Assembly (NCBI GenBank): GCA_902765485.1
Contig: CACWZZ010000019.1
Coordinates: forward strand, 1 to 39,619
Origin: an uncultured Bacteroidales bacterium
Lineage (GTDB): Bacteria > Bacteroidota > Bacteroidia > Bacteroidales > Paludibacteraceae
Direction: 5' to 3'
Length of the DNA: 39,619 nt
Shown here piece by piece: positions 301 through 36,473 of the stretch. Under the pieces are notes generated by a model that saw only the letters and a program-made list of their open reading frames with translations, was not told the DNA's origin and searched no databases. Both the position numbers and the translations under genes were made by a program. Every line of letters starts with the position of its first letter. Position 1 is the stretch's first letter.

Positions 301-326
301 CCCCCCAACCCCCTAAAGGGGGAGAG
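301..326. repeat. GC-rich palindromic dispersed element, intergenic copy
   Basis: A C-rich half is followed by CCCCCTAAAGGGGGAGAG. The inner part, CCCCCT/AGGGGG, is a palindrome. Closely related copies occur at 561-592, 1654-1679, 3942-3970, 5610-5640 and 36361-36390, several of them inside genes. This copy starts immediately after the stop codon of the preceding gene. Confidence 0.8.
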
Positions 327-332
327 AATTGG

Positions 333-360
333 AAAAAGCGTCCCACGGGGCGCTTTTTTT
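333..360 (+). terminator. Intrinsic terminator
   Basis: An 11-bp stem (AAAAAGCGTCC paired with GGGCGCTTTTT, one G-T pair) closes a CACG loop and runs straight into a T tract. It would end transcription from the partial gene before the promoter of msrC, whose -33 element lies in the end of the T run. Confidence 0.85.
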
Positions 361-390
361 TGTATATGTCAAAAAAAAGTACTACCTTTG
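359..390 (+). promoter_or_regulatory. Bacteroidota-type promoter for msrC
   Basis: TTTG at 359-362, a 20-bp spacer and TACCTTTG at 383-390 match the Bacteroidota -33/-7 consensus. Transcription would start near 396, which excludes the upstream TTG and ATG codons of the same frame and supports ATG at 414 as the start. Confidence 0.8.
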
Positions 391-413
391 CGGCGCAATT
401 AAGGAAGACTATT

Positions 414-881
414 ATGACGAAAGAAGAACAATACCAAGAATTGCTGGCGCAGGCGGCTTCGGTAGTATCCGGCGAGACGGACCTGATCGCCAACATGGCG
501 AACGTGGCGGCACTCATCCATGAGACGTTCGGGTTCTGGTGGACGGGATTTTACAGAGTGGCCCCCTCCGACTCCCCTATTAAGGGGGAGAGAAAAGAGC
601 TGGTGTTGGGTCCGTTCCAAGGACCGCTGGCGTGTACACGTATTCCTTATGGAAAGGGTGTCTGCGGCACTGCGTGGGCGAAAAACGAGACCGTGATCGT
701 GCCCAATGTGCATGAGTTTGCCGGACATATCGCCTGCTCCAGCGAGTCCAACAGCGAAATCGTCGTGCCCCTCCGCCGCAACGGCGAGGTGATTGCCGTG
801 CTGGATATAGACAGCAAAGAGTTCAATACTTTCGACCAAATCGACAAAAAATACTTGGAACAAATCGTTAAATTGCTATGA
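414..881 (+). CDS. msrC: Free methionine-R-sulfoxide reductase (fRMsr, GAF domain)
   Basis: This 155-residue GAF-fold enzyme is predicted to reduce free L-methionine-R-sulfoxide to methionine with thioredoxin, in the cytoplasm. The three family cysteines are present at residues 74 (in PLACTRIP), 84 (in GKGVCGTAW) and 108 (in HIACSSESNSEIVVP). Their 10/24 spacing equals that of E. coli fRMsr (Cys84, Cys94, Cys118). ATG 414 is chosen because the promoter puts the transcript start near 396; an upstream TTG in frame at 360 lies inside the promoter. Residues 50-60 (APSDSPIKGER) are encoded by a copy of the dispersed palindromic element and replace what is normally a tight hairpin before ELVLGPFQG. 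The stop overlaps the next start as ATGA, so it is translationally coupled to the esterase gene. Confidence 0.93.
   Translation: MTKEEQYQELLAQAASVVSGETDLIANMANVAALIHETFGFWWTGFYRVAPSDSPIKGERKELVLGPFQGPLACTRIPYGKGVCGTAWAKNETVIVPNVHEFAGHIACSSESNSEIVVPLRRNGEVIAVLDIDSKEFNTFDQIDKKYLEQIVKLL
561..592. repeat. Palindromic element inside msrC, in frame
   Basis: GCCCCCTCCGACTCCCC is followed by TATTAAGGGGGAGAGA. It has the same C-rich half, palindromic centre and GGGGGAGAG end as the intergenic copies. It is read as APSDSPIKGER within the reductase and leaves the rest of the frame intact. Confidence 0.8.
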
Positions 882-1648
882 AACACATCCTTTACTTGGC
901 GGCAATCGTGCTATTAGCCGTCAGTTGTCAGAAATCAGCTGTCAGCCTTCAGCCTTCAGCCGGAACGGTTGTGCGCGACACGATCCACGGCACGCCCTGC
1001 TGCGTCTATCTGCCTAATGAAGTACCAAGTACCAAATATCCGGTTCTCTATCTGCAGCATGGCATGTACGGCAACGAGGACGACTGGACGAGGCAAGGAC
1101 GTTTGGTGGAGATCATGGACTCGCTGCTGCAAGCCGGAGAGGTCAAAGAGATGGTGGTTATCATGCCGGATAACTGTCCTTCTCGTCCTACTTCGGAAGA
1201 GGAGCGCGCGAACGCCATGAACGGCGAATGGATCCGCCAATTCCCGGACTTCATGGCGGAAGCCGAAGCCAAATATCCAATCAGCAATGAACCTTCCAAG
1301 CGCGCCATTGCAGGTCTCTCCATGGGCGGTTTTCACACCCTGCACGTGAGCCATCATCTGCATGGACAATTTGCATACGTGGGTTTATTCTCCGCGGCAA
1401 TCCGTCCTGTTGAACCGGTTGCGATCTACGACCATTGGGAAGAGGAAATCCGCGAACAGATGAAGACTACCACACTCTATTGGATCGGCATCGGAAGGGA
1501 GGATTTTCTGTATGATTTCAATACCGATTACCGCCGTTGGTTAGAAGCCAATCACCTCGAATACACCTATTACGAGAGTGCCGGCGGTCATACCTGGGAC
1601 AACTGGCAGGACTACCTCTGCCGATTCTTACCTAAACTATTTCAGTAG
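878..1648 (+). CDS. Esterase-family alpha/beta hydrolase lipoprotein
   Basis: A 256-residue alpha/beta hydrolase of the putative esterase family (esterase D / feruloyl-esterase-like, PF00756 type). The N-terminus is a lipoprotein signal with lipobox LAVSC (Cys17), so the enzyme should sit in an envelope membrane. The oxyanion-region motif YLQHGMYGNEDDW, the nucleophile elbow GLSMGG (Ser148), a likely acid in GREDFLYDF (Asp209) and the histidine in AGGHTWDNW (His238) form a complete catalytic set. The substrate cannot be read from sequence; relatives cleave acyl or feruloyl esters of carbohydrates. Two dispersed short repeats lie inside the gene in frame: a CAGCTGTCAGCC-type run just after the lipobox cysteine and AGTACCAAGTACC at 1021-1033. 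It starts in the ATGA overlap with msrC. Confidence 0.88.
   Translation: MKHILYLAAIVLLAVSCQKSAVSLQPSAGTVVRDTIHGTPCCVYLPNEVPSTKYPVLYLQHGMYGNEDDWTRQGRLVEIMDSLLQAGEVKEMVVIMPDNCPSRPTSEEERANAMNGEWIRQFPDFMAEAEAKYPISNEPSKRAIAGLSMGGFHTLHVSHHLHGQFAYVGLFSAAIRPVEPVAIYDHWEEEIREQMKTTTLYWIGIGREDFLYDFNTDYRRWLEANHLEYTYYESAGGHTWDNWQDYLCRFLPKLFQ
917..962. repeat. Short direct-repeat run (TCAG-type) inside the esterase gene
   Basis: Repeated TCAGC/TTGTCAG words (for example CAGCTGTCAGCCTTCAGCC) encode residues just after the lipidated cysteine. The same word family appears at 5711-5745 inside the TonB receptor gene and between genes at 6391-6419, 35066-35098 and 38461-38485. Confidence 0.65.
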
Positions 1649-1653
1649 CCAAA

Positions 1654-1679
1654 GCCCCCCAGCCCCCTAAAGGGGGAGA
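1654..1679. repeat. Palindromic dispersed element, intergenic copy
   Basis: GCCCCCCAGCCCCCTAAAGG followed by GGGAG. It is almost identical to the copy at 301-326 and lies a few bases after the esterase stop codon. Confidence 0.8.
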
Positions 1680-1685
1680 TGTTTA

Positions 1686-1760
1686 GTGTTTGCGGTCGCC
1701 CTCATGGGATCTACCGCCATGTCTGTTGAGCCGCTGCGGCGAGGGGAATACGATTTTGTG
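1686..1760 (+). pseudogene. Remnant resembling the endonuclease/exonuclease/phosphatase gene downstream
   Basis: The frame here reads FAVALMGSTAMSVEPLR followed directly by RGEYDFV. The intact gene at 3190-4239 has MVFAGINAMSAEPLR at its signal-peptide end and LRRGEYDFV about 95 residues later. The remnant therefore looks like the start of such a gene joined to its middle. The join falls on a short shared word (TGCGG), as expected for a microhomology deletion. It then runs into 33-bp tandem repeats. This is an inference from two short matches; the match in the signal-peptide region is weak and the LRRGEYDFV match is strong. Confidence 0.5.
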
Positions 1761-1835
1761 CAGTTTAGACTACCTAAAACTTGCGATTTTGTGCAGTTTA
1801 GACTACATAAAACTTGCGATTTTGTGCAGTTTAGA
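1751..1835 (+). repeat. 33-bp tandem repeat, 2.6 copies
   Basis: Units begin at 1751, 1784 and 1817 (CGATTTTGTGCAGTTTAGAC at the start of each full unit). The first two differ at one base (CTACC versus CTACA) and the third stops after 19 bases. Within the array AAACTTGC and GTGCAGTTT form an imperfect inverted repeat. The array ends about 10 bp before the promoter of the AAA ATPase gene. The word CGATTTTGTGCA is also present in the downstream endonuclease-family gene. Confidence 0.85.
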
Positions 1836-1844
1836 ATGATTTTT

Positions 1845-1876
1845 CTTGCATATATGAATAAATTTTACTACCTTTG
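1845..1876 (+). promoter_or_regulatory. Promoter of the AAA ATPase gene
   Basis: CTTG at 1845-1848, a 20-bp spacer and TACCTTTG at 1869-1876. It differs from the -33 consensus TTTG at one base. It lies just after the 33-bp tandem repeats. Confidence 0.7.
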
Positions 1877-1904
1877 CAGCGGTTTTTAGAAAGACATTAT
1901 TCTT

Positions 1905-3188
1905 ATGAAGAACTTAAAACGTATTTTAGAGTCCCAAAGAGAGGAATTGGAGCATGTGGACACCGGCTTGCTGTGCACGCGCAAGGAAGAGCAAGAAATG
2001 GATCTGAACAGCCATTTGGCACAGGTAGTTATCGGCGTACGGCGTAGTGGTAAGTCAACGCTTTGTCAGAAAGTGTTGATTGAGAAGAAAGTGCCTTTCG
2101 CTTATGTCAATTTCGATGACGAGCGTCTAAGAAATGCCAAAACGGACGACTTGGATGACGTACTACAGATGCTTTATGAGATTTATGGTGATTTCACACA
2201 CCTGTTTTTAGACGAGGTTCAGAACGTCAAGGATTGGCCTCTATTCGTTAACCGCCTCTTACGCCAGCAAATTCGATTAATAATAACAGGAAGCAATGCC
2301 AATTTGTTAAGCGGAGAATTAGCAACGCATCTCACCGGCCGTTACCATAAGATAGAATTGTTCCCATTCTCTTTTGCAGAAGTATGCAAAATGAACCATA
2401 TAGATACTGTATCCGGTAGCGTTCGTGCAATCGGACTTAGACAGCACGCATTATCGCAGTATATTATGGAAGGAGGCTTCCCGGAATTGATTGCTGTTCC
2501 CGAGACGAATAGACACGATTATTTACAATCACTTCTTAAAGCAATCATTGAGAAAGACATTTGCAAGCGATACAAAGTGCGGTACAAAAAAACGCTATCC
2601 GATTTGGCAAACAAGATGCTAGACTGGTTCTGTCAAGAAAAATCCTACAACGATATAACAGAGGAATTAGGAATCCAATCGGTACACACCACGAAGAATT
2701 ATATGGAGTATCTGCAAAATGCGTATCTGCTATATGTGCTACCTAAGTTTTCCTTAAAGAGCAAAGAAAAGACGATGGCGCGTAAAGCCTATGCTATTGA
2801 TCCGGCATTTATTGACGAGCATGACAACGCCTTACTGACCGAGAGTTACGGCTTGCGACTGGAGAATGTAGTCGCATTGGAGATAGCACGCCGCATTCAT
2901 AGTGACTATCAGCAACTATATTATTTACGCAAAGAGCGTGAATATGAAGTGGATTTTGTGGTGGTAGAAAGGAATCATGTGCAAGAACTGGTACAAGTGA
3001 CTTATGACTTTAGTAATCCTTCTGAGAAATTATATAAGCGTGAGATTGAAGGATTAACACGAGGATCAGTAGCAACTCATTGTGACAACCTGACGCTGAT
3101 TGTTATGTATGGTGACACGGGTACCATTGAACATAACGGCAAAAAGATCCGTGTAGTGAATGCTGCCGATTGGCTCTTAGAACATTAA
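1905..3188 (+). CDS. AAA ATPase with C-terminal DUF4143 domain
   Basis: A 427-residue member of the AAA_14/DUF4143 family, which is widespread in Bacteroidota and archaea and has no settled function. The Walker A motif is GVRRSGKS at residues 44-51, Walker B is LFLDE at 100-104, and a sensor-like ITGSNANLLSGELATHLTGR follows. The C-terminal third holds the DUF4143 part with YEVDFVV followed by an ELVQV strand, a layout like a PD-(D/E)xK nuclease core. Such genes are often scattered in many copies; here it lies between a scar and an intact copy of an endonuclease-like gene and may have arrived there as a unit. The stop is one base before the next ATG. Its own promoter precedes it. Confidence 0.88.
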   Translation: MKNLKRILESQREELEHVDTGLLCTRKEEQEMDLNSHLAQVVIGVRRSGKSTLCQKVLIEKKVPFAYVNFDDERLRNAKTDDLDDVLQMLYEIYGDFTHLFLDEVQNVKDWPLFVNRLLRQQIRLIITGSNANLLSGELATHLTGRYHKIELFPFSFAEVCKMNHIDTVSGSVRAIGLRQHALSQYIMEGGFPELIAVPETNRHDYLQSLLKAIIEKDICKRYKVRYKKTLSDLANKMLDWFCQEKSYNDITEELGIQSVHTTKNYMEYLQNAYLLYVLPKFSLKSKEKTMARKAYAIDPAFIDEHDNALLTESYGLRLENVVALEIARRIHSDYQQLYYLRKEREYEVDFVVVERNHVQELVQVTYDFSNPSEKLYKREIEGLTRGSVATHCDNLTLIVMYGDTGTIEHNGKKIRVVNAADWLLEH

Positions 3189-3189
3189 A

Positions 3190-4239
3190 ATGCAGCATAA
3201 GTGTTGTAATATTCTCCTTACTCTTGTAATGGTTTTCGCGGGTATAAACGCCATGTCCGCCGAGCCGCTGCGGGTGGTGAGTTATAATGTGGAAAACCTT
3301 TTCCATCCGAAGCATGACAGCGTCATGGTTGACAGCCTGTGGGTGGAGAAAGACGATTGGGAATGGACGCCGGAGGGTGAGCGGCGGTGGAGCTATTCAC
3401 GCTATGAACGGAAGGTCGAATCCATTGCCCGCGTGCTGACCGCCATCGGCGAGTGGGATGGGGTGGATATAGCGGGTCTGCAGGAGGTGGAGAATGCCAA
3501 ATGCCTGCGCAAACTATGCTACACTTTGCGGCGGGGCGAGTACGATTTTGTGCATTACGAGAGCCCTGACCTACGAGGGATAGATGTTGCGCTGATCTAT
3601 AAAAAGAGCAGGGTGGACACACTCCGGACGAGAAAACTCAGCATACAAAACCCACCCCGGAGTTCTACGGACGGCCACCGGCAGTCCGATCGAGCAGAGC
3701 TCTTCACCACCTCAAGGGAGGAGAAACTGGAAACCCGCGACATTCTCTATGTTTGCGCCAAGGTGGACAAAAAAGACACGCTCCATCTGTTTGTATGCCA
3801 TCTGCCGAGCCAGCGCGGCGGAGCCGCAGAGAGCGAATGGAAAAGGACCGCAGTAAAAGCCGTACTGCAAACCGCCATCGACAGCGTTTATGAGGCTTGT
3901 CCGAACGCGAAAATCATCGTTATGGGCGATATGAATAGTGACGCCCCCTCTGTCCCCCTGAAGGGGGAGGAACTACGGGGTGTGAGGTATCGGGAACCGG
4001 TTAATGGAAAAGAAATCGGCACGCATAAATGGCAAGGGCGGTGGAGTTGTCTCGATCGGTTCTATACCTCGCCTGCCTTGGACAGCCTCAGCAGAGCGGA
4101 GATATACAACGCCGCTTGGATTCAAGAGCCGGATGAGAAATATCTGGACTTGAAACCCAAGCGGACGTATAACGGTTTTCGGTATCAGAAAGACGGCTTT
4201 TCGGACCATCTGCCGATTGTGCTTACAGTTTCGCTTTGA
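3190..4239 (+). CDS. Secreted endonuclease/exonuclease/phosphatase family protein
   Basis: A 349-residue DNase I-like fold protein, a common secreted type in Bacteroidales. A signal peptide covers about residues 1-25 (ending NAMSAEP). Metal and catalytic motifs are present in order: SYNVENLF, LQEVENA, HLPSQRGG, MGDMNSD and the terminal SDHLPIV. The real substrate (nucleic acid, phospholipid or phosphosugar) cannot be told. The start codon lies one base after the ATPase stop, so the two are probably cotranscribed. Two dispersed-element copies appear in frame: a full one at 3942-3970 right after MGDMNSD (read APSVPLKGEE), and a partial one near 3706-3724 (read TTSREEK). The 3' end overlaps the convergent TonB receptor gene by 17 bp. 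Confidence 0.88.
   Translation: MQHKCCNILLTLVMVFAGINAMSAEPLRVVSYNVENLFHPKHDSVMVDSLWVEKDDWEWTPEGERRWSYSRYERKVESIARVLTAIGEWDGVDIAGLQEVENAKCLRKLCYTLRRGEYDFVHYESPDLRGIDVALIYKKSRVDTLRTRKLSIQNPPRSSTDGHRQSDRAELFTTSREEKLETRDILYVCAKVDKKDTLHLFVCHLPSQRGGAAESEWKRTAVKAVLQTAIDSVYEACPNAKIIVMGDMNSDAPSVPLKGEELRGVRYREPVNGKEIGTHKWQGRWSCLDRFYTSPALDSLSRAEIYNAAWIQEPDEKYLDLKPKRTYNGFRYQKDGFSDHLPIVLTVSL
3942..3970. repeat. Palindromic element inside the endonuclease-family gene, in frame
   Basis: GCCCCCTCTGTCCCCCTGAA followed by GGGGGAGG. It is read APSVPLKGEE directly after the MGDMNSD metal-binding motif. In relatives I remember, the segment after GD(F/M)N is short. Confidence 0.75.
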
Positions 4240-6391
4240 TACTCACTTTTGCCCACGCTCCGGGTTGGAGGATTCCGCCGTAGTCGTAATAGCGGGTGTT
4301 GGTCATGTTCGTACAGTCGGCAGAGACGCGCAGGTACTTGTTTTGCCAGAAGATCGAACCGTCCAAGAGCCATACCGGCTGGTAATCCGCCACAGCTCCT
4401 TCGGCATTATTGTACTGCCCTTCGCGTTTCTGGAAACGGACGGTCCATGACGCTCCGAGCCCTTTGTAAATCCCGTGCTCCAGATAGATCGAAAGCTTAT
4501 GGCTGAGGTAGTCCAAGTACCGCGAACCGGACTCTTTCAGATCCAAATCCAAATAGGTGTAAGCATAGTCCACCGAGATACACCTGAGCCATTCATTCCA
4601 CCTATACGCCACACTCAGTTCCACACCCGTGGCATTCACCTGTTGCTGGTTCTCGGCGTGGTAAGGACGCTTGGTGTCGGTCGGCACATACACCCAGTCG
4701 ATGATATTCTTTCCCCAGCGATAGTACCAGTCAGCGGACAGAGACAGCTTGCCTGCTTTGCCAAAGTCCGGCGTGTATTTATACCCCACGGATAGCAGCC
4801 ATGCTTCTTCGGGTTTGAGATTGCGGTTGCCGAGTTGGTTGCCGGCATTATAATAGAGGTCCGTGAAGGTCGGCATGCGCAGCGACCGGTTGGCATTGGC
4901 ATAGAGCGTGCCGGCTTTCTCAAAGGTATAACCGATGTTCGCACCTCCGCCTAAATGGTGTCCGAACTGCGTGTTATACGTACCGTTAATACCGATAGAC
5001 GCAGCCAATCCGGCATAGTAGAACGTCTGCTCGGCGTAGTAATTGGCATGAAACCTATTACCTCCTTTGACCAGATTCAGCACACGCACGTCCGCCAGCG
5101 GAAAATCCGCCACGTTAGGCACTTGTCCGTTCGGGTTGATCGTGTCGCCGAGGTTGGTGGAATGCATGTTCTCGTTCCTTACTCCGACGCCAAAAGAGGT
5201 CGTACCAACCCGCGAAGCATAGTGCGCTGCAAGAGCAGCAGAAGCGGTCTGGGCGAAATGGAAATTACCATACAACCGCTGGCCTCTATGCCACTCATAG
5301 CGGTCGTAGTTAGCGCGATAGCTTGCCTGCGCGTCCAGACGCCATGCACCCCAACGATGCGCATACTTGGCGGAAGCAAAAGCCGTACGCGTGGCGTCAA
5401 ACTGATCCTGGCTGCCAAAACCATAACCCATTCCAAGTCCTGCATCTTTCCATTGCGCACCGGCTTGCACGTCCAGTCCTCTCCAGCGGGTCTGGAAATA
5501 GACATTAGCCAGTTTGAAATCGCTGTTCTTGCAGGCGTTGGCTTCTTTCTCGGTGGGCGACGGCGCATAATATCCATCCGCACGGCTGTACTCGGCGGAG
5601 AGGTTAATAACCCCTTCCGACCTCCCCTCAAGGGAGGAGGATTTATTAGGAATGGCAAGGGTAGCCGCCACCTCGGGATTGACCAGACCGTTCATACCTG
5701 CCGTAAGTTTGAGGCTGACTTCTGACGGCTGACGGCTGACAGCTTGCTTCGTGACGATATTGATTGCGCCGGAGAAAGCACCGTGCAGGTTCGCCGACGT
5801 ACCTTGCAGCACTTCCACGCGCTCGATCAGTTCCGCCGAAACAGGTATATTGAGCGCATAGTGCCCGGTGTGAAAATCAGATAGCGGCACACCGTTTAGG
5901 AGCACCAGCACTTGGTCGAACGTACCGCCGCGCATGCTGATATCCGCTTGGGCACCGTTCGCGCCGCGCGTTCGCACATCAATCCCGGGCAGATACTGCA
6001 AAATATCCGCTACGGTCTGGATCGGCAAGGCTTCTATCTCGGCGTGCGAGACCTGCGTGATCAGACGATAGGCTTCCGAATGAACTTCAGCTTTGTGAGA
6101 AACGACCAGCACCTCCTGAAGACTAAGTTGCTGGCTGTTCAATGGGACAGAATCCTTGGGAACGCCTTCATCGGCTTCCGCGGAAGCTACTCCGGCAAAA
6201 AGCAGCAACGCCGAAACGGCAATACTCTTTCCGCTCTTGAGCATCTCCAGATCCGTCATGTACGCTGCCACGCGCCCGATCGTCACCTCCCGGTGAACAG
6301 AACAGAAAGCGGCATACGCCTTGTGGCTGAACCGACGGAAACGGATTCCTTGTTGTTTTAGAAGATTTTTGAACATAAAATTGATAAGCAT
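4223..6391 (-). CDS. TonB-dependent outer-membrane receptor, BtuB-like
   Basis: A 722-residue TonB-dependent receptor. The N-terminus has the long extension (RFRRFSHKAYAAFCSVHREV) that precedes the signal core in many Bacteroidales receptors, then the hydrophobic SIAVSALLLFAGVASA. The plug domain follows (ADILQYLPGIDVRTRG, DISMRGGTFDQVLVLLNGVP, RVEVLQGTSANLHGAFSGAINIVTK), then a beta-barrel ending in the aromatic-rich last strand with GAWAKVSIKAKL. The plug wording is close to Bacteroidota cobalamin (BtuB-type) receptors, so a corrinoid substrate is likely but not proven; no riboswitch or cobalamin gene is nearby. Two dispersed elements sit in frame at 5610-5640 and 5711-5745, both in the early barrel. 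The start could be 6391 or the ATG at 6376. Confidence 0.9.
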   Translation of the reverse strand: MLINFMFKNLLKQQGIRFRRFSHKAYAAFCSVHREVTIGRVAAYMTDLEMLKSGKSIAVSALLLFAGVASAEADEGVPKDSVPLNSQQLSLQEVLVVSHKAEVHSEAYRLITQVSHAEIEALPIQTVADILQYLPGIDVRTRGANGAQADISMRGGTFDQVLVLLNGVPLSDFHTGHYALNIPVSAELIERVEVLQGTSANLHGAFSGAINIVTKQAVSRQPSEVSLKLTAGMNGLVNPEVAATLAIPNKSSSLEGRSEGVINLSAEYSRADGYYAPSPTEKEANACKNSDFKLANVYFQTRWRGLDVQAGAQWKDAGLGMGYGFGSQDQFDATRTAFASAKYAHRWGAWRLDAQASYRANYDRYEWHRGQRLYGNFHFAQTASAALAAHYASRVGTTSFGVGVRNENMHSTNLGDTINPNGQVPNVADFPLADVRVLNLVKGGNRFHANYYAEQTFYYAGLAASIGINGTYNTQFGHHLGGGANIGYTFEKAGTLYANANRSLRMPTFTDLYYNAGNQLGNRNLKPEEAWLLSVGYKYTPDFGKAGKLSLSADWYYRWGKNIIDWVYVPTDTKRPYHAENQQQVNATGVELSVAYRWNEWLRCISVDYAYTYLDLDLKESGSRYLDYLSHKLSIYLEHGIYKGLGASWTVRFQKREGQYNNAEGAVADYQPVWLLDGSIFWQNKYLRVSADCTNMTNTRYYDYGGILQPGAWAKVSIKAKL
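5610..5640. repeat. Palindromic element inside the TonB receptor gene, in frame
   Basis: On the plus strand ACCCCTTCCGACCTCCCCTC is followed by AAGGGAGGAGG. It is the same design as the other copies but with GGGAGG arms. On the coding strand it is read SSSLEGRSEG, most likely in an extracellular loop of the early barrel. Confidence 0.7.
5711..5745. repeat. TCAG/CTGA-type short repeat inside the TonB receptor gene
   Basis: The plus strand shows repeated GGCTGAC words (CTGACGGCTGACGGCTGACA). The coding strand reads AVSRQPSEVS between the plug end (NIVTK) and the first barrel strands. The esterase copy at 917-962 is read AVSLQPSA, so the same word is inserted in the same reading frame in two unrelated genes. 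Confidence 0.65.
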
Positions 6392-6428
6392 TCAGCTGTC
6401 AGCTATCCGCATTCAGCAAAAAAGCGTG

Positions 6429-6476: not shown

Positions 6477-6527
6477 CACACATTTTCAAATGAACAAATC
6501 GTAAATCTTCAAATCGTAAATCGTTTT

Positions 6528-7760: not shown

Positions 7761-7761
7761 T

Positions 7762-13313: not shown

Positions 13314-14121
13314 GGCTTTTCTCTATTAAATTAGTTAATTCAATAAATTCTTCAACACTCAGCTGTTCCGGTCTGCGGGTTAGAAAAAACTCTAATCGTT
13401 GATTCTCTTCTCCCTCTGTGGTGGGGTTTACTAATCCCTTCAGAGAATTCCGCATCTGCTTTCGTCTCTGGTTGAAAGCAGTCTTCACTACCGTCTTGAA
13501 CAGCTCTTCATCGCATTCCAATCGTCGTCGCTTATTCCGCGTCATGCGGATCACAGCCGACTTCACCTTGGGCGGAGGGTTGAACACATATTCATCTACC
13601 GTAAATAGATATTCTATATCATAATACGCTTGTAGTAACACACTCAAAATCCCGTACGCTTTCTTGCCGGGCTTCGACGCAATCCGTTCTGCCACTTCTT
13701 TTTGGATCATACCCGAGCACACGGGAATACGGTCCTTGTATTCCAATACCTTAAAGAAAATCTGGCTGGATATATTGTACGGATAATTGCCGATGACGTT
13801 AAATTCGCCTTCGGGATAAAGAATATTAAGGTCGAGTTTCAGAAAATCTCCTTCTATCAGATGCAGCTCTGGGTACCATTCTTTGAGGTACGCCACACTT
13901 TCGCGGTCGATCTCTATCGCCGTGAGCTGTATATTCGGATCTTTCAGCAGAAACTGGGTCAATACACCCATACCGGGACCGATCTCCAATACACGTACTT
14001 TTTCGGTACTTGGTACTTGGTCACTTTGTCCCTTATAGGTGGTCTCAGCAATCCTCTGGGCGACATTCAAGTCCTTCAAGAAGTGCTGACCAAGAAATTT
14101 TTTGGCATGTACTCGCTGCAT
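13306..14121 (-). CDS. rsmA: 16S rRNA (adenine1518/1519-N6)-dimethyltransferase
   Basis: A 271-residue KsgA/RsmA enzyme that dimethylates two adjacent adenines in helix 45 of 16S rRNA with S-adenosylmethionine. The N-terminal KKFLGQHFLKD, SAM motif VLEIGPGMGVLT, the acidic AIEIDRE, the catalytic NYPYNIS and the FNPPPKVKSAVI segment are all present. Between TTYKG and VRVLEIG the protein reads QSDQVPSTEK. This comes from an ACCAAGTACCAAGTACC-type dispersed repeat at 14006-14029 and lengthens a loop that is short in relatives. Its promoter is at 14196-14227 on the minus strand. Confidence 0.95.
   Translation of the reverse strand: MQRVHAKKFLGQHFLKDLNVAQRIAETTYKGQSDQVPSTEKVRVLEIGPGMGVLTQFLLKDPNIQLTAIEIDRESVAYLKEWYPELHLIEGDFLKLDLNILYPEGEFNVIGNYPYNISSQIFFKVLEYKDRIPVCSGMIQKEVAERIASKPGKKAYGILSVLLQAYYDIEYLFTVDEYVFNPPPKVKSAVIRMTRNKRRRLECDEELFKTVVKTAFNQRRKQMRNSLKGLVNPTTEGEENQRLEFFLTRRPEQLSVEEFIELTNLIEKSHE
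14006..14029. repeat. GTACCAAGTACC-type repeat inside rsmA, in frame
   Basis: The plus strand reads GGTACTTGGTACTTGGTCAC; the coding strand contains ACCAAGTACCAAGTACC. It is read DQVPST. The copy in the esterase gene at 1021-1033 is read VPST in the same frame. A looser relative lies at 38351-38386 near the end of the DUF285 gene. Confidence 0.65.
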
Positions 14122-29820: not shown

Positions 29821-29838
29821 TCAAACAATTTCAAACAA

Positions 29839-31197
29839 ATGAAAAAGAAAAAACTTTTGTTCTTTGCCCTTATGGCAACATTAGGCATCTTCTTCACCGC
29901 CTGCGAACCCAAGCAGCCCGAAGAACCCGCCATCACCTTGCAGGGCATCAAACTCAACCAAACTTCCGTCACGCTCTACGAGAAAGAGGAGGTCAAACTC
30001 CGTGTCCGCTACACGCCGGAGGAAGCCGCAGCGATAGCTCCTGCTGTCGTCTGGTATAGCGATAAACAGCGTGTCGCTTCCGTTGACGACAACGGTCTCG
30101 TTAAAGCCGACCGCGTCGGTACTGCCGTCATCACCGCCCAATGCGGTCAGTTCGAAGCCAAATGTACCGTCGAGGTCGTCAAACTTGACCTACCTGAGCC
30201 CGAACCCGACCCCGAGATCAATTTCTCCCTTTCTACGGAGCTCATCGAAGCGCCGGCGAAGGGCGGTACGTTTGACATCACCGTGACTACGGACACCACT
30301 TGGAAAGCCGCTTGCGAGAAAAGTTGGGCGCACCTCAGTCAGACGGAGGGAAAGGGCAACGCTACTATTCAAGTAACCGTCGATCCCGCGGAAACGGAGT
30401 CCACGCTGACCCAGAAAATAACCTTCTCTGTCGGCAAGGGTAAATACTTCGTTACCATCCAGCGAAAAGGAAAGATTATGGCTATCACGATAGACCAAAG
30501 CCAAATAGACGTGCCCGTAACAGGCGGTACTTATACCGTCAATGTGACATCCGGAAACGAAGAATGGGATGTGAAAGCAGTTTGTCCTAACTCTCTCAGC
30601 TATGACCATGTAACCGTTTCGAAATCAGGTAATACGGCTACAATTAAAGTGGCTGTAAATAAAGTATTAACAGGACTGTATACCGACAGTTACAATCGTT
30701 TCTCTGATCGCTTAACCTATAGCGTTATCAAAGTTATCTTCACGGATGGCGACCTCTCAACCACGCTTACTCTCCAGCAAGAAAAACCGTATATACAAGT
30801 TGTAGATCATGGTTATGGGGTGTTCTTATATGTGAAAAATGGAAACGAAGCATTAGCATATTATGATGGAAATTATTATAAGTTCTCAACGGAGAAGTTT
30901 ACGATAAAATCAAACATCCCATGGAAATTTGACGGAATTGAATATCTCGACGGAGAACAAATAACATCCGGCAACTATAATGACGGAATGCGAGATTTTA
31001 CTAGTACGTTATCTCCGGACCATGGAAAAGCAGGAGAGACTTCTGCGATAGCAACAATAACCGTTCCAGCTCATCTGCGCTTTTACTATGGTGGATGCAG
31101 ATTTTTGGTTAACGGTACCGGCGAGTGGTCTAATTTGGTTACAGAAGAATATTTTAAAACACGTGTAGCTACAATTGCATTTGATTTTACTTACTGA
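29839..31197 (+). CDS. Lipoprotein with Ig-like (BIG2) and BACON domains
   Basis: A 452-residue surface or periplasmic lipoprotein; the lipobox is FFTAC (Cys21) and the start follows the leader repeats. Residues about 31-113 form a bacterial Ig-like group 2 domain (GIKLNQTSVTLYEKEEVKL, VVWYSDKQRVASVDDNGLVK, GTAVITAQCG). A proline-rich spacer leads to two BACON-type domains, the first with APAKGGTFDITVTTDTTWKA and VTIQRKG, the second with VPVTGGTYTVNVTSGNEEWD. The last 130 residues are another strand-rich domain. BACON domains in Bacteroidota are linked to mucin or glycan binding, so adhesion is plausible. It is the first full gene behind the operator cluster, presumably under control of the TPR-AraC protein. 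Confidence 0.85.
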   Translation: MKKKKLLFFALMATLGIFFTACEPKQPEEPAITLQGIKLNQTSVTLYEKEEVKLRVRYTPEEAAAIAPAVVWYSDKQRVASVDDNGLVKADRVGTAVITAQCGQFEAKCTVEVVKLDLPEPEPDPEINFSLSTELIEAPAKGGTFDITVTTDTTWKAACEKSWAHLSQTEGKGNATIQVTVDPAETESTLTQKITFSVGKGKYFVTIQRKGKIMAITIDQSQIDVPVTGGTYTVNVTSGNEEWDVKAVCPNSLSYDHVTVSKSGNTATIKVAVNKVLTGLYTDSYNRFSDRLTYSVIKVIFTDGDLSTTLTLQQEKPYIQVVDHGYGVFLYVKNGNEALAYYDGNYYKFSTEKFTIKSNIPWKFDGIEYLDGEQITSGNYNDGMRDFTSTLSPDHGKAGETSAIATITVPAHLRFYYGGCRFLVNGTGEWSNLVTEEYFKTRVATIAFDFTY

Positions 31198-31242
31198 TTG
31201 AAAAATCAACCCTTAATAATAACAAACAAAATCCACACAACA

Positions 31243-31764
31243 ATGAAAAAAATCCTTTTTTTAGCAGTGGCAGTTATTGCCCTGATCACAACCGGCTGTG
31301 AGAACCTCCAGCCGACGCAGGTCTCCTCCAAGGACCTCAAGGACAAAGTGACGGTAAGCGGTTACGCACGTTACACAGTCAACAACGGCAAAGGCGAAGC
31401 CCAGAAACCCCAGCTGCTGACCGACCAGGAACTCGTCCTCTACTACGGTATGAAGGACGCCGAAGGCAAGATGGCGTACACCCATTATGCCCTGAAGACC
31501 AACGAAGACGGCTACTTCGCTATCGACCTGCCTCTCCAACCCGGAAAGGTGATCATTGACGAAGTCAAAGTCGTATGTTCTTTCTCGCTCGATCTGGCTA
31601 CTTATGCTTACAACAAGGTCTCCAAGAAATGGGAGATGACCAATGCCGATTTCTTCGGCGAAGTGGCAAAACAGAACCTCGCTGCAGGTAGTTCGTATTA
31701 TTATGCTCTCGAGGTAGCAGCCGTGGCGTACACCTCCAGTCCCGATCTGGAGCAACCGAAGTAA
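31243..31764 (+). CDS. Small lipoprotein of unknown function
   Basis: A 173-residue lipoprotein starting MKKILFLAVAVIALITTGC (lipobox ITTGC). The open frame reaches 31198, but only ATG 31243 gives a normal signal peptide. The mature part (KVTVSGYARYTVNNGKG, ELVLYYGMKDAEGKMAY, GYFAIDLPLQPGKVIIDEVK) has the strand pattern of a carboxypeptidase-regulatory or transthyretin-like fold, where a beta-sandwich carries a turn after DGYF. I do not recognise a named family. Between two other envelope genes in the same orientation, it probably belongs to the same operon. Confidence 0.72.
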   Translation: MKKILFLAVAVIALITTGCENLQPTQVSSKDLKDKVTVSGYARYTVNNGKGEAQKPQLLTDQELVLYYGMKDAEGKMAYTHYALKTNEDGYFAIDLPLQPGKVIIDEVKVVCSFSLDLATYAYNKVSKKWEMTNADFFGEVAKQNLAAGSSYYYALEVAAVAYTSSPDLEQPK

Positions 31765-31766
31765 AC

Positions 31767-31795
31767 TGAAAGTTGAAAATTGAAAATTGAAAGTT
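31767..31795. repeat. GTTGAAAATTGAAAA-type short repeat
   Basis: CTGAAAGTTGAAAATTGAAA followed by ATTGAAAGTT fills the gap up to the next start codon. It is another member of the class of short direct-repeat runs seen throughout the window. Confidence 0.7.
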
Positions 31796-32743
31796 ATGAA
31801 AAAGATTTTAGCAACTCTTCTTGCGGCGATGATAGCCCTCCCGATGCTCTATGCCAAGGACGAGAAAGCGCAACCGCAAGAGTGGAACGAGCCGGGTGTA
31901 GGCTCCTGGGCAATAGGTATCACTTTCAACCCTGTCAGCCTCGCTTCGCGTCTGACCGTTCAGCCGAAAGCCGGTACGGCGGTCAACGGTACTATATCCG
32001 GCAGTATGGCTATCGAGAAACAGCTCTATGCTCTCTCTCAGGACCCGGTACTCGCCATCCGTGCCAAATACCGCATCCAGCAGAACTGGAACCTGCGTAT
32101 GGCATTGGGCTTCAGCGGTTCGCATATCCATTATTCCGAGTACGTACAGGATGATGCGGCAGTGCTGCTGAACCCTGCTTCCGAGAACAAAGTGACGGAC
32201 GCCGTCAAGTCCGACCTCACCTCCGGTAACCTCGTCCTCGGTGCGGAGTTCGTGAAAGGAAAGAAAGTGAAATTCACCATGGGCTTCAGCCTCCTCTACG
32301 CCATCGGCGGCGGCAAGCTGAATTTCGCGTACGGCAATGCCATGACTTATAGCAATCCCATCCCGTCCTCGATGCCGTATTCCGGTTGGATCAACGGTGC
32401 TTCGGCTGCCTTGAACCCCGACCACGGAGCTGCGGCTGCGCAGGGTATAGGCTGGGCGCGACCCCTCAAGACCAATAACTCCGGCGTACACCACGGTATA
32501 GGCGTAGCTATGGATATGGGTATCGAGTGGTTCTTCCAGGACCGCATCTCGCTTGGTGCGGCAGTCACTTTCTCACCGGTTATGTTCACCTTCCGTCCGC
32601 AGACTTATACCGTCATGGAAGGTCTGAGCACCCTTTCCGGCAAGGTGGAGCAGTATAACCTGCTCGTCAGCCCGGGTAGCTGGTCCTGCCTCTACGGTAC
32701 GGAGAACATCGGTTTCCAGTTATCGTTGAACTATTATCTATAA
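31796..32743 (+). CDS. Outer-membrane beta-barrel protein
   Basis: A 315-residue protein with signal peptide MKKILATLLAAMIALPMLYA. ATG 31796 is preferred over an upstream TTG because it gives this signal. Strands with alternating residues (GSWAIGITFNPVSLASRLTV, AIRAKYRIQQNWNLRMALGF, FTMGFSLLYAIGGGKLNFAY, GVAMDMGIEWFFQDRISLGA, and the final GFQLSLNYYL ending in an aromatic-rich strand) indicate a porin-like barrel anchored in the outer membrane. With the two preceding lipoproteins it forms a likely three-protein surface unit under the activator-type promoter. Its cargo is unknown. Confidence 0.8.
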   Translation: MKKILATLLAAMIALPMLYAKDEKAQPQEWNEPGVGSWAIGITFNPVSLASRLTVQPKAGTAVNGTISGSMAIEKQLYALSQDPVLAIRAKYRIQQNWNLRMALGFSGSHIHYSEYVQDDAAVLLNPASENKVTDAVKSDLTSGNLVLGAEFVKGKKVKFTMGFSLLYAIGGGKLNFAYGNAMTYSNPIPSSMPYSGWINGASAALNPDHGAAAAQGIGWARPLKTNNSGVHHGIGVAMDMGIEWFFQDRISLGAAVTFSPVMFTFRPQTYTVMEGLSTLSGKVEQYNLLVSPGSWSCLYGTENIGFQLSLNYYL

Positions 32744-32772
32744 GTTAACTTTTCCCCGTGATCTTTGAATTA

Positions 32773-32955
32773 TAAATCGAAAATTATTTTTATTATTTTT
32801 GTAAGCGTTAGCGCATTTTTGTAAGGCGGTAGTACGGCATTTAGCCGGACGCAGCGGGGCTACGGGGCGGCAGAACGAGGAGCTCGCTCATCGGGCAGAC
32901 GAGCCGGAGCAACGTAAAGGCGCATCAAGCGCCGAACCGCCGCATTTTCGATTTA
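32773..32955. other. Inverted-repeat-bounded GC-rich element, candidate structured RNA or MITE-like element
   Basis: Twelve-bp inverted repeats TAAATCGAAAAT (32773-32784) and ATTTTCGATTTA (32944-32955) bound a region whose core (about 32822-32943) is much more GC rich than its surroundings. Inside, GGCGGT (32825-32830) pairs with ACCGCC (32936-32941). GGCGC-ATCAA-GCGCC (32919-32933) and CGGC-ATTTA-GCCG (32835-32847) form local hairpins, and CTCG/CGAG words can pair between. No open frame of note runs through it. It fills the gap between the barrel gene and the next lipoprotein gene. Confidence 0.55.
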
Positions 32956-32994
32956 CTAAAAATACCAACCGGGAAACAATTAATTAAAACAATT

Positions 32995-34548
32995 ATGAAA
33001 AAGATTTTTTATTTCATGTCCCTGGCAGCAGTAGTCTTTGCCATGGCGTCTTGTAAAGACAAAGAGGAGCCTGTTCCTCAAGGCGAGAAAGTGATCCCGC
33101 AGCAGATCAGGCTGGCGGACGCTTTCCAGGAGTATTTCATGAGCGAAGGAGAGACGGCTGTCATCCAGTACACCGTCACGCCCTCCAACGTCAATGTCAC
33201 CTACACGCTCGCGTGGGCCTCTTCCGACGAGAAGGTGGTTAAGGTGGACAGCAAAGGTAGGGTTACCGCTCTGGCAGAAGGTTCCGCTACGGTCACTGTC
33301 TCTATTAACGAGTATCCGGAGGTAAAGCCGGCGGTGGCTTCCATCACTATTCTGGCGCCCGCGAAAGTAGGAGATTATATCTACAATGACGGCTCCTGGG
33401 GCGAGAATCCCAATCCTGATGGCAAGAAAGTGATTGCGGTCGTTTACTGGCTCGGCAACGCTTCTCTCTTCGACCCGATCCTCGAGGTGGATTATCCGAA
33501 CTGCACTCACGGTCTGGCAATGTCTATCAAGCAAGGAAAGGCAGGCGAATGGATGAAGGATTTCCATTCTTATTTCCTTGGTACGGATATCGAATACACT
33601 TCATTGGAAGAAGTCTTTATGAATATGGGTAACGGACCTCTCTGTGACAACTCCGGTTCGCTGACTGAGTGGGGTATTGAGCATTCTTCTTATGCGGAGC
33701 TCATCCGTCCGTATTTTGAGAACAAAGATTTATGGGCTGGTGATGGCTTCTGCGGATTGGGTGGCTACACCTATACTTCCGTGCTGGAGCAATATACGCG
33801 CGAGTATCCGAATGCAGATCAATACCCCTTCGAGTTCTATATCAACGCCATGAATCTCGTAAAAGACATTGAGGCGCCGCTGACTACTTCGCGCTGGTAT
33901 GTGCCCTCTATCTTTGAGGCGGCACTGATGGTCAATACCGCGCTTACCAAACCGAGCGATTTCAATAACTCCCAAGTGGATGACGATATGAATCCGCTCA
34001 TCAACCACAACAATGACAATTTGGCGGTTATGAACACTGCGCTTCAGAAAGTGCAGGGTGCCGATCTCCTGCCTACGACGGATGAGTATGCTATCGCTTC
34101 TGCTACAGATGCATATTGTCCGTTCAAAGAGATATGCAGTTCTATGAGCTGCGGCGATTTCTTCGAGTGCTGCTATGTATGCAATACAGGCGAAGGACGC
34201 CCGGCCGACGAAGCGGCGGAGATTGAAGCAAGATGGGATAGCTGGCTCAAAGACAATGCCGGTGACAAGTATCAGGAGTACAAGAACTACGCCGAGACTA
34301 TTAATGAGCGCTATGAAGTATTCCTGGCAATCAGAGGATATGATAATGTCACTCCCGAGCAGATAAGAGGTGACCGTGTAGGTGTTGGGCTTTCCATACT
34401 GGTTGCTTCGATATATGCCAATGTGGGTGTAGCAGATGGAAAGATGCATGCCCGCATGACTAAAATTGATGGCTATTGGCCATACGTATCCGGCCAGAAA
34501 GGAGAAGACAACGAAGGCGACGTAGTCCGCGCTATCATCGCATTCTAA
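32995..34548 (+). CDS. Lipoprotein with Ig-like (BIG2) domain and a large unknown C-terminal domain
   Basis: A 517-residue lipoprotein with lipobox MASC (Cys20). Residues about 33-122 form a BIG2-type domain (YTLAWASSDEKVVKVDSKGR, SATVTVSI). From about residue 125 it reads KVGDYIYNDGSWGENPNPDG and VIAVVYWLGN, the opening seen in many Bacteroidota surface proteins. A ~390-residue domain follows that I do not recognise, with clusters CSSMSCGDFFECCYVC near residues 380-396 that could bind metal or form disulfides. The promoter is uncertain; TATTTTTG at 32794 lies 26 bp after a TTTG, too far for the normal spacing. It may also be read through the element before it. Confidence 0.75.
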   Translation: MKKIFYFMSLAAVVFAMASCKDKEEPVPQGEKVIPQQIRLADAFQEYFMSEGETAVIQYTVTPSNVNVTYTLAWASSDEKVVKVDSKGRVTALAEGSATVTVSINEYPEVKPAVASITILAPAKVGDYIYNDGSWGENPNPDGKKVIAVVYWLGNASLFDPILEVDYPNCTHGLAMSIKQGKAGEWMKDFHSYFLGTDIEYTSLEEVFMNMGNGPLCDNSGSLTEWGIEHSSYAELIRPYFENKDLWAGDGFCGLGGYTYTSVLEQYTREYPNADQYPFEFYINAMNLVKDIEAPLTTSRWYVPSIFEAALMVNTALTKPSDFNNSQVDDDMNPLINHNNDNLAVMNTALQKVQGADLLPTTDEYAIASATDAYCPFKEICSSMSCGDFFECCYVCNTGEGRPADEAAEIEARWDSWLKDNAGDKYQEYKNYAETINERYEVFLAIRGYDNVTPEQIRGDRVGVGLSILVASIYANVGVADGKMHARMTKIDGYWPYVSGQKGEDNEGDVVRAIIAF

Positions 34549-34577
34549 AATAACAAATCACAAATAACAAAAAACAA

Positions 34578-35012
34578 ATGAAAAAAATCTTTACAAAACT
34601 GCTTGTGCTGCTGGTGGTAGTGGCAAGCGGAATGGTTCTCACCGGATGTGAGAAAAACAATCAGAAAAACCTGATTGGCAGATGGAAACTCGTTTCGCAC
34701 GATGTCGAGTACAAAAATGGCGGCGACGTGGAAAAAAACACAGTGCCGCTTCAATATAGCCTGATCTGGGAGTTTACGGCTGACGGTACTGTTATACAGA
34801 CCATGGAAGAAGAGGGTGAAATTGATACAGCTACAGCCTCCTATACATTCGGAAACAATATAATTACTACGAATGATGATGGTGATGTCATGCAGATGGT
34901 TGTCAAAGAACTAACCTCCAAGAAGTTAGTCATTGAAAAAAGTGAATCAGAAATAGAAGATGGAATACGGTACACCATTACCACTACTCTTACATTCGAG
35001 AAGATGAACTAA
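34578..35012 (+). CDS. Lipocalin-like small lipoprotein
   Basis: A 144-residue lipoprotein (lipobox VLTGC, Cys24). The mature part starts NLIGRWKLVSHDVEYKNGG, then LIWEFTADGTVIQTM, TASYTFGNNIITTNDDGD and KLVIEKSES, which is the strand order and GxW entry of the lipocalin-like domain proteins common in Bacteroidota. Ligand unknown. It lies 29 bp after the previous gene with no promoter between, so cotranscription is likely. Two short hairpins follow its stop codon. Confidence 0.82.
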   Translation: MKKIFTKLLVLLVVVASGMVLTGCEKNNQKNLIGRWKLVSHDVEYKNGGDVEKNTVPLQYSLIWEFTADGTVIQTMEEEGEIDTATASYTFGNNIITTNDDGDVMQMVVKELTSKKLVIEKSESEIEDGIRYTITTTLTFEKMN

Positions 35013-35013
35013 T

Positions 35014-35056
35014 ATCCGTTCGCGGATTTCAGCTCGGCGGGATTGGTTTCCCGCCG
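35014..35056 (+). other. Two consecutive hairpins after the lipocalin-like gene
   Basis: ATCCG-TTCG-CGGAT (35014-35027) and CGGCGGGA (35035-35042) paired with TCCCGCCG (35049-35056). No T tract follows, so they are not a classic terminator but could protect the 3' end or separate two transcripts. A TGAATGCTGA-type short repeat (35066-35098) follows. Confidence 0.55.
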
Positions 35057-35126
35057 GGTTACAAAAGCTGAATGCTGATAACTGAATGCTGACGGCAAAA
35101 TGTGACCTATATAAATAATAATGAGT

Positions 35127-36473
35127 ATGAAAAAAATCTTTACCCTTTTCGTAGTTGCCGTAGCGGCAGTAACGATGTCCGCCAAAACCGCCGAAAGCGG
35201 CTCATGCGGCGCCAATCTGACATGGAACTTTGATTCCGGCACTCTCACAATCTCCGGTACGGGACCCATGACCGACTATTCGACGGACAATCTCGCTCCA
35301 TGGTTTGATCTGAAAGACAATATCACTGTCCTGCACATCAATCCCGGTCTCACCACCATCGGTGATTATGCCTTCTATGGATTAACCAAAGTGGCAAACG
35401 ATGTACATATTCCTGCCGGTGTGACTTATATCGGCAAATATGCATTCGATGTGTGTGTGTCTATCCCCTCTGTGTTTATTCCCGTCGTGGATAGTATCGG
35501 CGCCTATGCGTTCGGATTATGCGCCGCTTTGAATAGCGTGTTTATTCCTTATGGTGTGAATAGGGTCGGAGAAAGTGCTTTCGCTTTCTGCACCGGCTTG
35601 AAAGAAGTGGCTCTGTCTTCTACAACCGGAATTGGACAATACGCCTTCCGCAGTTGCACGGCTTTGGAAAGGGTAGCGGATTATTCATTATACCCGCAGA
35701 GCAATAGAGACAATATCTTCGAAGATGTTAATGTAGGTCAGTGTGAGCTCTTTGTGCCGGTTGACGAACATGCACAAACATGGTATAACAAAGGGATATG
35801 GGACGGATTCAGGCAACGAATAATATCATCCATTGAAGACATGGGCAATGGCTTCTATCACTTCTATGATTTTGAAGAAGGCAGCATGCGTGTGGCCGGG
35901 GAAGGCATGTTACCCGATAATGTTTATGAATCGATGCTGCATCCTTCCGTAACTGATCCGAGGTTCCAGGTCGTCAGTCTTTCTCTGCCGGAAGGTCTGA
36001 CCGGTATCGGCAAATATTATTTCGGAAACTACTGGTATCTGGACTCCCTGACGATTCCTGAAGGAGTGTCAGTACTCAAAACAAGTGCTTTCCAGAACTG
36101 CTATTCGCTGCGCACCGTGACGATACCAAGTAGCACTGTATTAATCGAAGATTATGTTTTCGCTGACTGCTATCCGCTGAAAACGGTTTATAACTATGCT
36201 ACTGCTCCGCAATCCATTAACGCGGGTGTATTTGATCGCGTAAATATATCCAAGTGCACGCTCTATGTGCCGAAAGGATACAAATCCGCGTACGAAGCCG
36301 CGCCTGTATGGCAAGACTTTATCATCAAGGAGATGGAGTATCCGGAAGCCATCGAACAGCCTACCTCCGACTCCTCCCTGAAGGGAAGAGCCAATAAGGT
36401 GCTGCGCGACGGACAGTTGTTTATCCTCCGCAACGGCAAGACCTATACCACTTCCGGCGCCGAGGTAAAGTAA
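35127..36473 (+). CDS. BspA-like leucine-rich repeat surface protein
   Basis: About 448 residues with signal peptide MKKIFTLFVVAVAAVTMSA; ATG 35127 is chosen over 35121 because paralogues begin MKKIF. After a TWNFDSGTLTISGTG segment the protein carries LRR_5/BspA-type repeats: IGDYAFYGL, IGKYAFDVCVSIPSVFIP, IGAYAFGLCAALNSVFIPYG, VGESAFAFCTGLKEVAL and IGQYAFRSC. A second block lies near residues 290-350 (LTIPEGVSVLKTSAFQNCYS). Such proteins often bind host or bacterial surfaces. A degenerate copy of the palindromic element (36361-36390, read TSDSSLKGRA) precedes the last 26 residues, KVLRDGQLFILRNGKTY to GAEVK. That tail is shared with the next protein and may be a sorting or anchoring signal. 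Confidence 0.85.
   Translation: MKKIFTLFVVAVAAVTMSAKTAESGSCGANLTWNFDSGTLTISGTGPMTDYSTDNLAPWFDLKDNITVLHINPGLTTIGDYAFYGLTKVANDVHIPAGVTYIGKYAFDVCVSIPSVFIPVVDSIGAYAFGLCAALNSVFIPYGVNRVGESAFAFCTGLKEVALSSTTGIGQYAFRSCTALERVADYSLYPQSNRDNIFEDVNVGQCELFVPVDEHAQTWYNKGIWDGFRQRIISSIEDMGNGFYHFYDFEEGSMRVAGEGMLPDNVYESMLHPSVTDPRFQVVSLSLPEGLTGIGKYYFGNYWYLDSLTIPEGVSVLKTSAFQNCYSLRTVTIPSSTVLIEDYVFADCYPLKTVYNYATAPQSINAGVFDRVNISKCTLYVPKGYKSAYEAAPVWQDFIIKEMEYPEAIEQPTSDSSLKGRANKVLRDGQLFILRNGKTYTTSGAEVK
36361..36390. repeat. Degenerate palindromic element in the BspA-like gene, in frame
   Basis: CTACCTCCGACTCCTCCCTG followed by AAGGGAAGAG. It matches the CTCCGACTCCCC ... AAGGGGGAGA layout with several changes and is read TSDSSLKGRA, close to PSDSPIKGER in msrC. 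Confidence 0.6.

Follow-up and report, generated by a model that had tools for sequence, protein, structure and literature searches.

A draft genome of an uncultured Bacteroidales bacterium of the Paludibacteraceae (GenBank assembly GCA_902765485.1, here G000) very probably carries mobile palindromes that resemble repetitive extragenic palindromes (REPs) and that have spread through its genus, for the most part singly, into genes as well as the stretches between them. The stretch analysed, contig CACWZZ010000019.1 (C19; 39,619 nucleotides (nt), referred to throughout as the window), holds several of them, each a short C-rich tract followed by a GC hairpin of 5–7 base pairs (bp), 24–33 nt overall. 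Inside genes, these insertions occupy variable stretches between conserved enzyme blocks and the gene frames are kept open. Differences in presence and absence between orthologues show that they are real insertions, the accompanying length differences are multiples of three at every well-anchored intragenic site, and one and the same loop holds different palindrome families or other repeats depending on the species.

Palindromes read in frame as protein are familiar above all from Rickettsia, with REP cases scattered elsewhere (PMC10969869, PMC3733652). In an uncultured genus with many sequenced species, filled and empty sites act as natural replicates, from which landing rate, accepting loops, persistence and any effect on the enzyme become measurable.

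Palindromes in the genome, the genus and beyond

G000 comprises 2,116,796 bases in 41 contigs and is 82.8% complete. Comparisons were made between species of the genus, in a sample of G000 and 60 congeners (61 genomes). The closest relative found, G075, aligns to window positions 380–6400 in three pieces at 91–97%, and the nearest named relatives among the compared loci are the metagenome-assembled genomes (MAGs) UBA4295 and RUG13776.

In G000 the exact pattern CCCC..AAGGGGGAG has 95 overlapping matches that make up 27 distinct sites, against none for the reversed control, and CCCCCTNAAGGGGGAG at 24 sites, again with a control of zero. The latter is absent from 18 of 24 other genomes of the genus and occurs one to four times in the remaining six, while among 16 genomes of other families a single one has three sites. 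A covariance model, R1, which was built from 15 element copies and is skewed towards the family of those copies, gave 101 matches in G000 at an approximate E ≤ 10. With E ≤ 0.5 and stricter filters for cross-genome counts, it found 60 copies in G000, 57 in G075, 41 in G063, 38 in G021 and 32 in G050; 16 of the 60 congeners had no match.

Between its genes, the window has copies with the sequence CCCCCCARCCCCCTRAAGGGGGAG, a 24-mer. Forms 29–33 nt long follow, by eye, a common plan of a C-rich tract of 8–9 nt, about two other bases and the hairpin. Stems, sorted by eye into roughly six families, vary jointly, the two arms changing in step, as in CTCCCCC/GGGGGAG, CCCCTCC/GGAGGGG and CTCTCCC/GGGAGAG (also read by eye).

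The exact 24-mer is found in at least 119 stretches of GTDB genomes, and the titles among the matches listed include Mucilaginibacter, Pedobacter, Paludibacter, Prevotella and Muribaculaceae; 76 of 80 such titles name Bacteroidota and four do not. At 59 of the 119 loci listed, an inverted REP-like copy lies at most 130 nt away, the layout of a REPIN, whereas in G000 such a partner stands within 200 nt of only 4 of the 101 sites. Forty-five of 138 copies at the loci listed from other genomes fall within an open frame of at least 200 amino acids (aa), as counted from open reading frames (ORFs) only, and 38 stretches of viral contigs also contain the 24-mer. Judged by sequence, the palindromes are REP-like and of a kind widespread in Bacteroidota. 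The whole window gave no Rfam match at gathering thresholds.

Insertions in protein-coding genes

The palindromes of the window and their host genes are as follows.

301..324, + strand: type A palindrome CCCCCCAACCCCCTAAAGGGGGAG, 24 nt, immediately 3' of the stop codon of the first gene (R1, 41.1 bits)
417..881, + strand: host gene, fRMsr-type methionine sulfoxide reductase with a GAF domain, the msrC of the initial annotation (Pfam, structure alignment)
561..592, + strand: long-form palindrome in frame in msrC, peptide APSDSPIKGER between WTGFYRV and ELVLGPFQG (R1, 33.6 bits)
1655..1678, + strand: type A palindrome, 24 nt, intergenic (exact pattern, R1)
3190..4239, + strand: host gene of the endonuclease/exonuclease/phosphatase family, with two insertions (PF19580)
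3651..3723, + strand: composite element, in frame, made of a C-rich tract, a conserved core of about 48 nt and the 3' palindrome arm CTCAAGGGAGGAG
3943..3970, + strand: palindrome in frame in the endonuclease gene, peptide APSVPLKGEE (R1)
4223..6391, − strand: host gene, TonB-dependent receptor (Pfam)
5610..5640, + strand: type E palindrome that lies antisense and in frame within the TonB receptor gene (R1)
36361..36390, + strand: palindrome, decayed, within the C-terminal tail that a BspA-like gene has in common with two other ORFs (R1)

The initial annotation had described these copies as GC-rich palindromes inserted in frame in conserved genes, and they are present where it placed them. What it took for a partial copy at 3706–3724 is indeed there, as the 3' end of the composite at about 3651–3723 rather than as a lone copy. 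It described a shared reading frame and peptide for the plus-strand genes; the TonB copy is antisense, and the 56 in-gene sites of the genome divide into 27 sense and 29 antisense. With the orientations so evenly split, no one peptide is preserved, and we rejected a fixed peptide as the explanation. The pattern CCCCCTCCGACTCCCC with at most three mismatches matches the window four times against 0.19 expected from 100 shuffles; three of the matches are listed copies, and the fourth (3448, minus strand) is not an element. The tail with the palindrome at 36361–36390 is common to two further BspA-like ORFs (C2:49306 and C2:38594; loci L074 and L065:4095-4126). With one tail in three such ORFs, the decayed palindrome is probably a single old event carried along with the gene.

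The first gene of the window (1–300) seems, by eye, to be multi-copy, since C10, C12, C14 and C15 are similar before the stop and have a palindrome right after it. L038, L050, L051 and L092 have a longer repeat between genes that includes a type A palindrome and is 80–87% identical to the rumen MAG locus L271 over 196–287 nt.

For residence inside genes, the frames open across each of the 101 sites were collected, and 49 ORFs picked by length and codon score were scanned against Pfam at 1e-5; 46 had a match and three had none. In total, 56 of the 101 sites are in frame in Pfam-supported genes, and 44 of these, belonging to 38 gene keys, are internal (10%–95% along the ORF). In this count L052, L037, L039 and L045 are overlapping loci of genes scanned once, and two of the 44 sites, in BspA-like rows, are assigned by paralogy. 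Copies close to ORF starts may be upstream of the real start. In RibD of G000 the palindrome lies at 9% of the ORF. Internal sites occur twice in MnmE, twice in a MiaB-like enzyme (with one more near its start), three times in HflX and twice in a PD-(D/E)XK nuclease, and also in CCA/poly(A) polymerase, the exonuclease VII large subunit, RsgA, IspH, MurD, GlmS, PrmA, signal peptidase (LepB), Mfd, Dus, DapB and GldD.

Six proteins were compared with solved structures. In fRMsr (3mmh), IspH (3dnf), RsgA (1u0l) and the first of the two MnmE sites (3gee), the element peptide coincides with a gap of the alignment; the other MnmE site has none. In MurD (3lk7) and GlmS (4amv) the peptide falls in a poorly aligned stretch with gaps beside rather than at it. 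For msrC, the alignment with 3mmh runs without gaps through the three cysteines and has the element peptide inside a gap, in agreement with the initial annotation, which had the three catalytic cysteines at the E. coli spacing.

Orthologous sites provide the filled and empty states. In the MiaB-like gene at C17:4179 (15 orthologues), the 24-nt palindrome is present in G075 and exactly 24 nt are missing in seven (G003, G071, G062, G050, G058, G049 and G045); G057, G060 and G076 are 21 nt shorter and G012 18 nt, G024 lacks the palindrome with a difference of −25 at poor anchors, G047 has a TACAGAGTACAGA-type repeat, and G063 has a different palindrome together with other repeats. At the TonB site, G075 and G050 have the palindrome, G058 and G047 lack it and have 30 nt less, and G003 has other extra sequence in place of a palindrome with a length difference of 0. 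The msrC site, followed in seven relatives, has a palindrome in G075 and a decayed one in G050. There, G057 and G052 are without palindrome and 27 nt shorter, G045 has other sequence of equal length, and G053 and G006 have AATCATC-type repeats and 15 nt more.

Between conserved anchors, the first endonuclease site holds the composite in G000 and G057 (the frame of the core differs in G057), a short palindrome in G075 (−57), other sequence in G071 (−51) and neither form in G051, G012, G058 and G003 (−69); in G050 it is unmeasurable owing to assembly N at 500–611 of L141. The palindrome of the second site recurs in G075 and is absent from G050 (−21). It is also missing from G057, G051 and G071, yet these are just 3, 6 and 12 nt shorter. 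The composite of the Dus gene is missing from G050 (−87) and G057 (−60), and at the palindrome site of this gene G057 has CAACTCTCAACT-type repeats. Anchors overlap at C7:80601 in both relatives and at C7:86622 and C7:82499 in G050, and a site outside genes, C7:75772, is common to G000 and G050. Two loops are too diverged for junctions to be read: MiaB C17:3852, with a palindrome in G000 only and other short repeats in G075, G050 and G003, and the AIRS loop (16 orthologues), in which G000 has one stem family, G075 another and the remaining 15, by eye, neither. The genome-wide excess (27 exact sites against a reversed control of 0; 101 R1 matches) and the absence from many orthologues (24 nt at the MiaB-like site, 30 nt at the TonB site) bear out the initial annotation's view of an element added to its host genes.

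Short tandem repeats with a period of 7 nt form a second repeat class. They lie at window 916–962, 1020–1038, 5710–5744, 6384–6417 and 14005–14029, several of them in coding sequence, and in relatives similar short repeats occupy loops where G000 has palindromes. Three are heptamers:

1020..1038, + strand: AAGTACC, in the coding sequence of an esterase-like gene
5710..5744, + strand: TGACGGC, in the TonB gene
14005..14029, + strand: GGTACTT, the reverse complement of AAGTACC, in an rRNA dimethyltransferase-like gene (named from sequence)

A further direct repeat, TTGCGATTTTGTGCAGTTTAGA-like and in about three tandem copies by eye, is intergenic at about 1753–1835.

These observations would fit insertion that is roughly random, with selection retaining only in-frame, stop-free insertions in permissive loops; retention there would come from selection against frameshifts and against disruption of the core. 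As the palindromes are stop-free in several frames and both orientations, and as one of their common forms is exactly 24 nt, insertions would often be harmless. The elements are most likely selfish or neutral, protein loops being one place of survival, and the different repeats in the same loops of relatives imply that selfish-looking DNA repeatedly becomes protein.

The composite element

The composite, about 75–85 nt long, has a conserved core of about 48 nt (commonest form TGTTCTACGGACGGCCACCGGCAGTCCGATCGAGCAGAGCTCTTCACCC) between a 5' tract and a 3' arm of varying palindrome families. That of the window (3651–3723) has nine matches in G000 and matches in 16 of the 61 genus genomes, at 78–100% identity. 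An order-wide sample listed one more genome of the genus and two of the family, with none among the other 294 genomes. Over 47 nt, the core is 100% identical in G018, G022 and G071; gene-length matches between G071 and G000 range from 67 to 80%, save one 316-nt stretch at 95%. Composite copy number rises with palindrome copy number (rho 0.60). No match to the core was found in IMG/VR (as a 21-nt exact pattern), plasmids or phages, and thus no vector.

Among the copies examined, the core is read in five frames, and 33 of 35 copies lie within some open frame. Of the longer ORFs among these, 20 were scanned and all have a Pfam match, one of them (a class II tRNA synthetase) with the element in the first tenth of the ORF. 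Hosts in relatives include FtsK, HisS, MurD, Mfd, RibD, MiaB-type enzymes, NqrA, CstA, a U32 peptidase and an EPSP synthase fusion, and G050 has a composite in the part of the TonB gene that corresponds to the TGACGGC heptamers. HisS carries the composite in one loop in G002 and in another loop, on the opposite strand, in G021.

The RibD loop after VGAVLV contains a palindrome in G000 and a composite in G071, and one MurD site has the short form in G000 and a composite in G051. Such alternation at one site, in MurD and in the endonuclease gene, suggests either an exchangeable middle of the element or repeated insertion into one loop. Beyond this, there may be a modular system in which the middle (a short hairpin arm or the core of about 48 nt) is swapped between constant arms by an unrecognised enzyme or a hairpin-copying process, continually supplying in-frame segments to housekeeping proteins across the genus, time and again in the same loops, an idea that we put forward tentatively and would not call probable. 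A conserved core with exchangeable arms and no visible Y1 transposase makes the movement of palindromes a testable question.

Movement, alternative explanations and known systems

Several results weigh against mobile REP-like palindromes. On folding, the expected hairpin is the best fold in only five of seven short forms, and single-strand folds beat shuffles by a modest margin only (z from −0.5 to −2.9). By eye, the GTRG/CGTC foot of canonical REPs is missing: type A has neither GT[AG]G nor CGTC at its foot, and types C and E have GTAG/GTGG-like letters only past the opposite side of the hairpin. No target duplication could be read at element sites. R1 matches below about 20 bits, with E values that are approximate, were judged by appearance. 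In the window, the excess of the half-pattern CCTNAAGGGGGAGR at three mismatches is unclear (20 against 13.4, reached by 4 of 100 shuffles), which leaves the full element and the genome to carry the case. The expected enzyme also failed to appear. The Pfam family Y1_Tnp (PF01797; IS200 and REP-associated tyrosine transposases (RAYTs)), the one transposase family searched, has no match in G000, at 82.8% completeness, nor in the other four highest-copy genomes, G075, G063, G021 and G050. A parent transposase for an IS200/IS605-derived MITE or IS fragment was sought in G000 through this family too, with no match. Y1_Tnp occurs in 22 of the 61 genomes, 18 above cut-off, and those 22 have a mean of 7.4 palindromes against 9.5 in the 39 without it (p = 0.76). 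At E ≤ 0.1, R1 found no palindrome in 12 Y1 loci, and three query proteins found no Y1-like ORF in the 119 other Bacteroidota loci. In several congeners (L163–L166), Y1-like open frames of 271–397 aa have a long C-terminal extension and perhaps belong to a non-RAYT Y1 class.

As Y1 is missing from the high-copy genomes and copy number is unlinked to it, the simplest REP–RAYT scheme is unsupported in these genomes, with the limit that draft genomes are incomplete and a diverged enzyme could escape detection. REP-like mobility itself remains our preferred reading, and for its route in-trans copying of single-stranded hairpins by a REP-type HuH activity that is absent, lost or unrecognisable in the high-copy genomes is plausible, if a little short of an even chance. 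That a RAYT-type HuH transposase was the spreader and sits in missing MAG parts, or is too diverged for PF01797, is a somewhat doubtful variant: the REP-like form, the inverted pairs elsewhere in Bacteroidota, the incompleteness of G000 and the atypical structures of the Bacteroidetes TnpA subclass 2.6 (PMC6006769) speak for it, but G050 (97% complete, 32 copies) and G063 (90%, 41 copies) have no Y1 match, and copy number and Y1 are statistically unlinked. A spread that needs no transposase of its own, through template switching or ectopic gene conversion between hairpins, seems rather unlikely, although it would also account for swapped middles at one site, as with the composite in G000 and G057 and the short form in G075 at the endonuclease site, the short and composite forms of MurD in G000 and G051, and the two stem families at the AIRS loop of G000 and G075. 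The mostly single copies of G000 (4 of 101 with an inverted partner) are in keeping with it. A joining step would still be required for new insertions at empty loops.

What the palindromes are can be weighed in the same way. A selected DNA or RNA function (terminators, nucleoid or segregation sites), with genic copies arising by chance, is improbable. The composite core is strongly conserved between species, and REPs elsewhere reportedly bind proteins or terminate transcription (PMC6006769), but the distribution is patchy (0 to 60 copies within the genus, the core in 16 of 61 genomes), families differ at one site and the window lacks Rfam matches at gathering thresholds. By eye, no T-run follows the intergenic copies of the window, the first of which is then followed by a separate terminator-like hairpin; on this ground a terminator role of the window copies was rejected. 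Ordinary variable loops with codons alike by chance, and no mobile DNA, would explain the strong interspecies variation of these loops in length and composition, yet are scarcely credible, given that the same DNA recurs in either orientation, in more than one frame and outside genes, that reversed controls are zero, and that in the MiaB-like gene and the TonB gene the net difference is as long as the element. Equally remote is horizontal acquisition of relatives of Rickettsia palindromic elements (RPEs) belonging to the same family: these hairpins measure 24–33 nt against about 150 bp in known RPEs, which were compared by description, and the exact 24-mer recurs across Bacteroidota (76 of 80 titles among the matches listed). 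RPEs are not known to have a transposase. The likeness that remains is one of behaviour, since RPEs too comprise several families that sit in frame within metabolic genes of unrelated kinds (PMC10969869).

The initial annotation is, as a whole, partly supported. The Rickettsia precedent it invoked is apt for the in-frame behaviour, while the DNA is a much shorter Bacteroidota REP-like palindrome. It also knew of no description for Bacteroidales, a view that holds only in part. A literature search by title and abstract opening, made mostly without subscription papers, found no work describing palindromes in frame throughout the housekeeping genes of a Bacteroidales genome, and nothing on the composite core or on recurrent use of the same loops; Bacteroidetes REPs, including some in frame within subclass 2.4 transposase genes, are on record (PMC6006769).

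PMC6006769 also places TnpA–REP subclasses 2.4 and 2.6 in Bacteroidetes, with atypical or REP structures. Like those REP/REPIN–RAYT systems, the palindromes described here are hairpins of 20–40 nt in high copy and several families, with inverted pairs in other Bacteroidota and a precedent for in-frame insertion in the subclass 2.4 transposase genes. Unlike them, they carry no GTRG foot on the 5' side of the hairpin, their five highest-copy genomes gave no Y1 gene, most copies stand alone, over half of the matches in this genome lie inside genes, and a composite form has a fixed core. With RPEs they share several palindromic families in frame in unrelated conserved genes, but RPEs are about 150 bp long according to PMC10969869, against 24–33 or about 75–85 nt here. 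RPE hosts are intracellular alphaproteobacteria rather than Bacteroidales, and here one loop takes different repeats in related species. REPs within genes, many of them in DNA repair and tRNA genes, are reported in PMC3733652; those GTAG- and CGTC-tagged REPs likewise lie inside ORFs, but differ in foot sequences and species, and it is the palindromes of the present genus that can be followed as filled versus empty orthologous sites.

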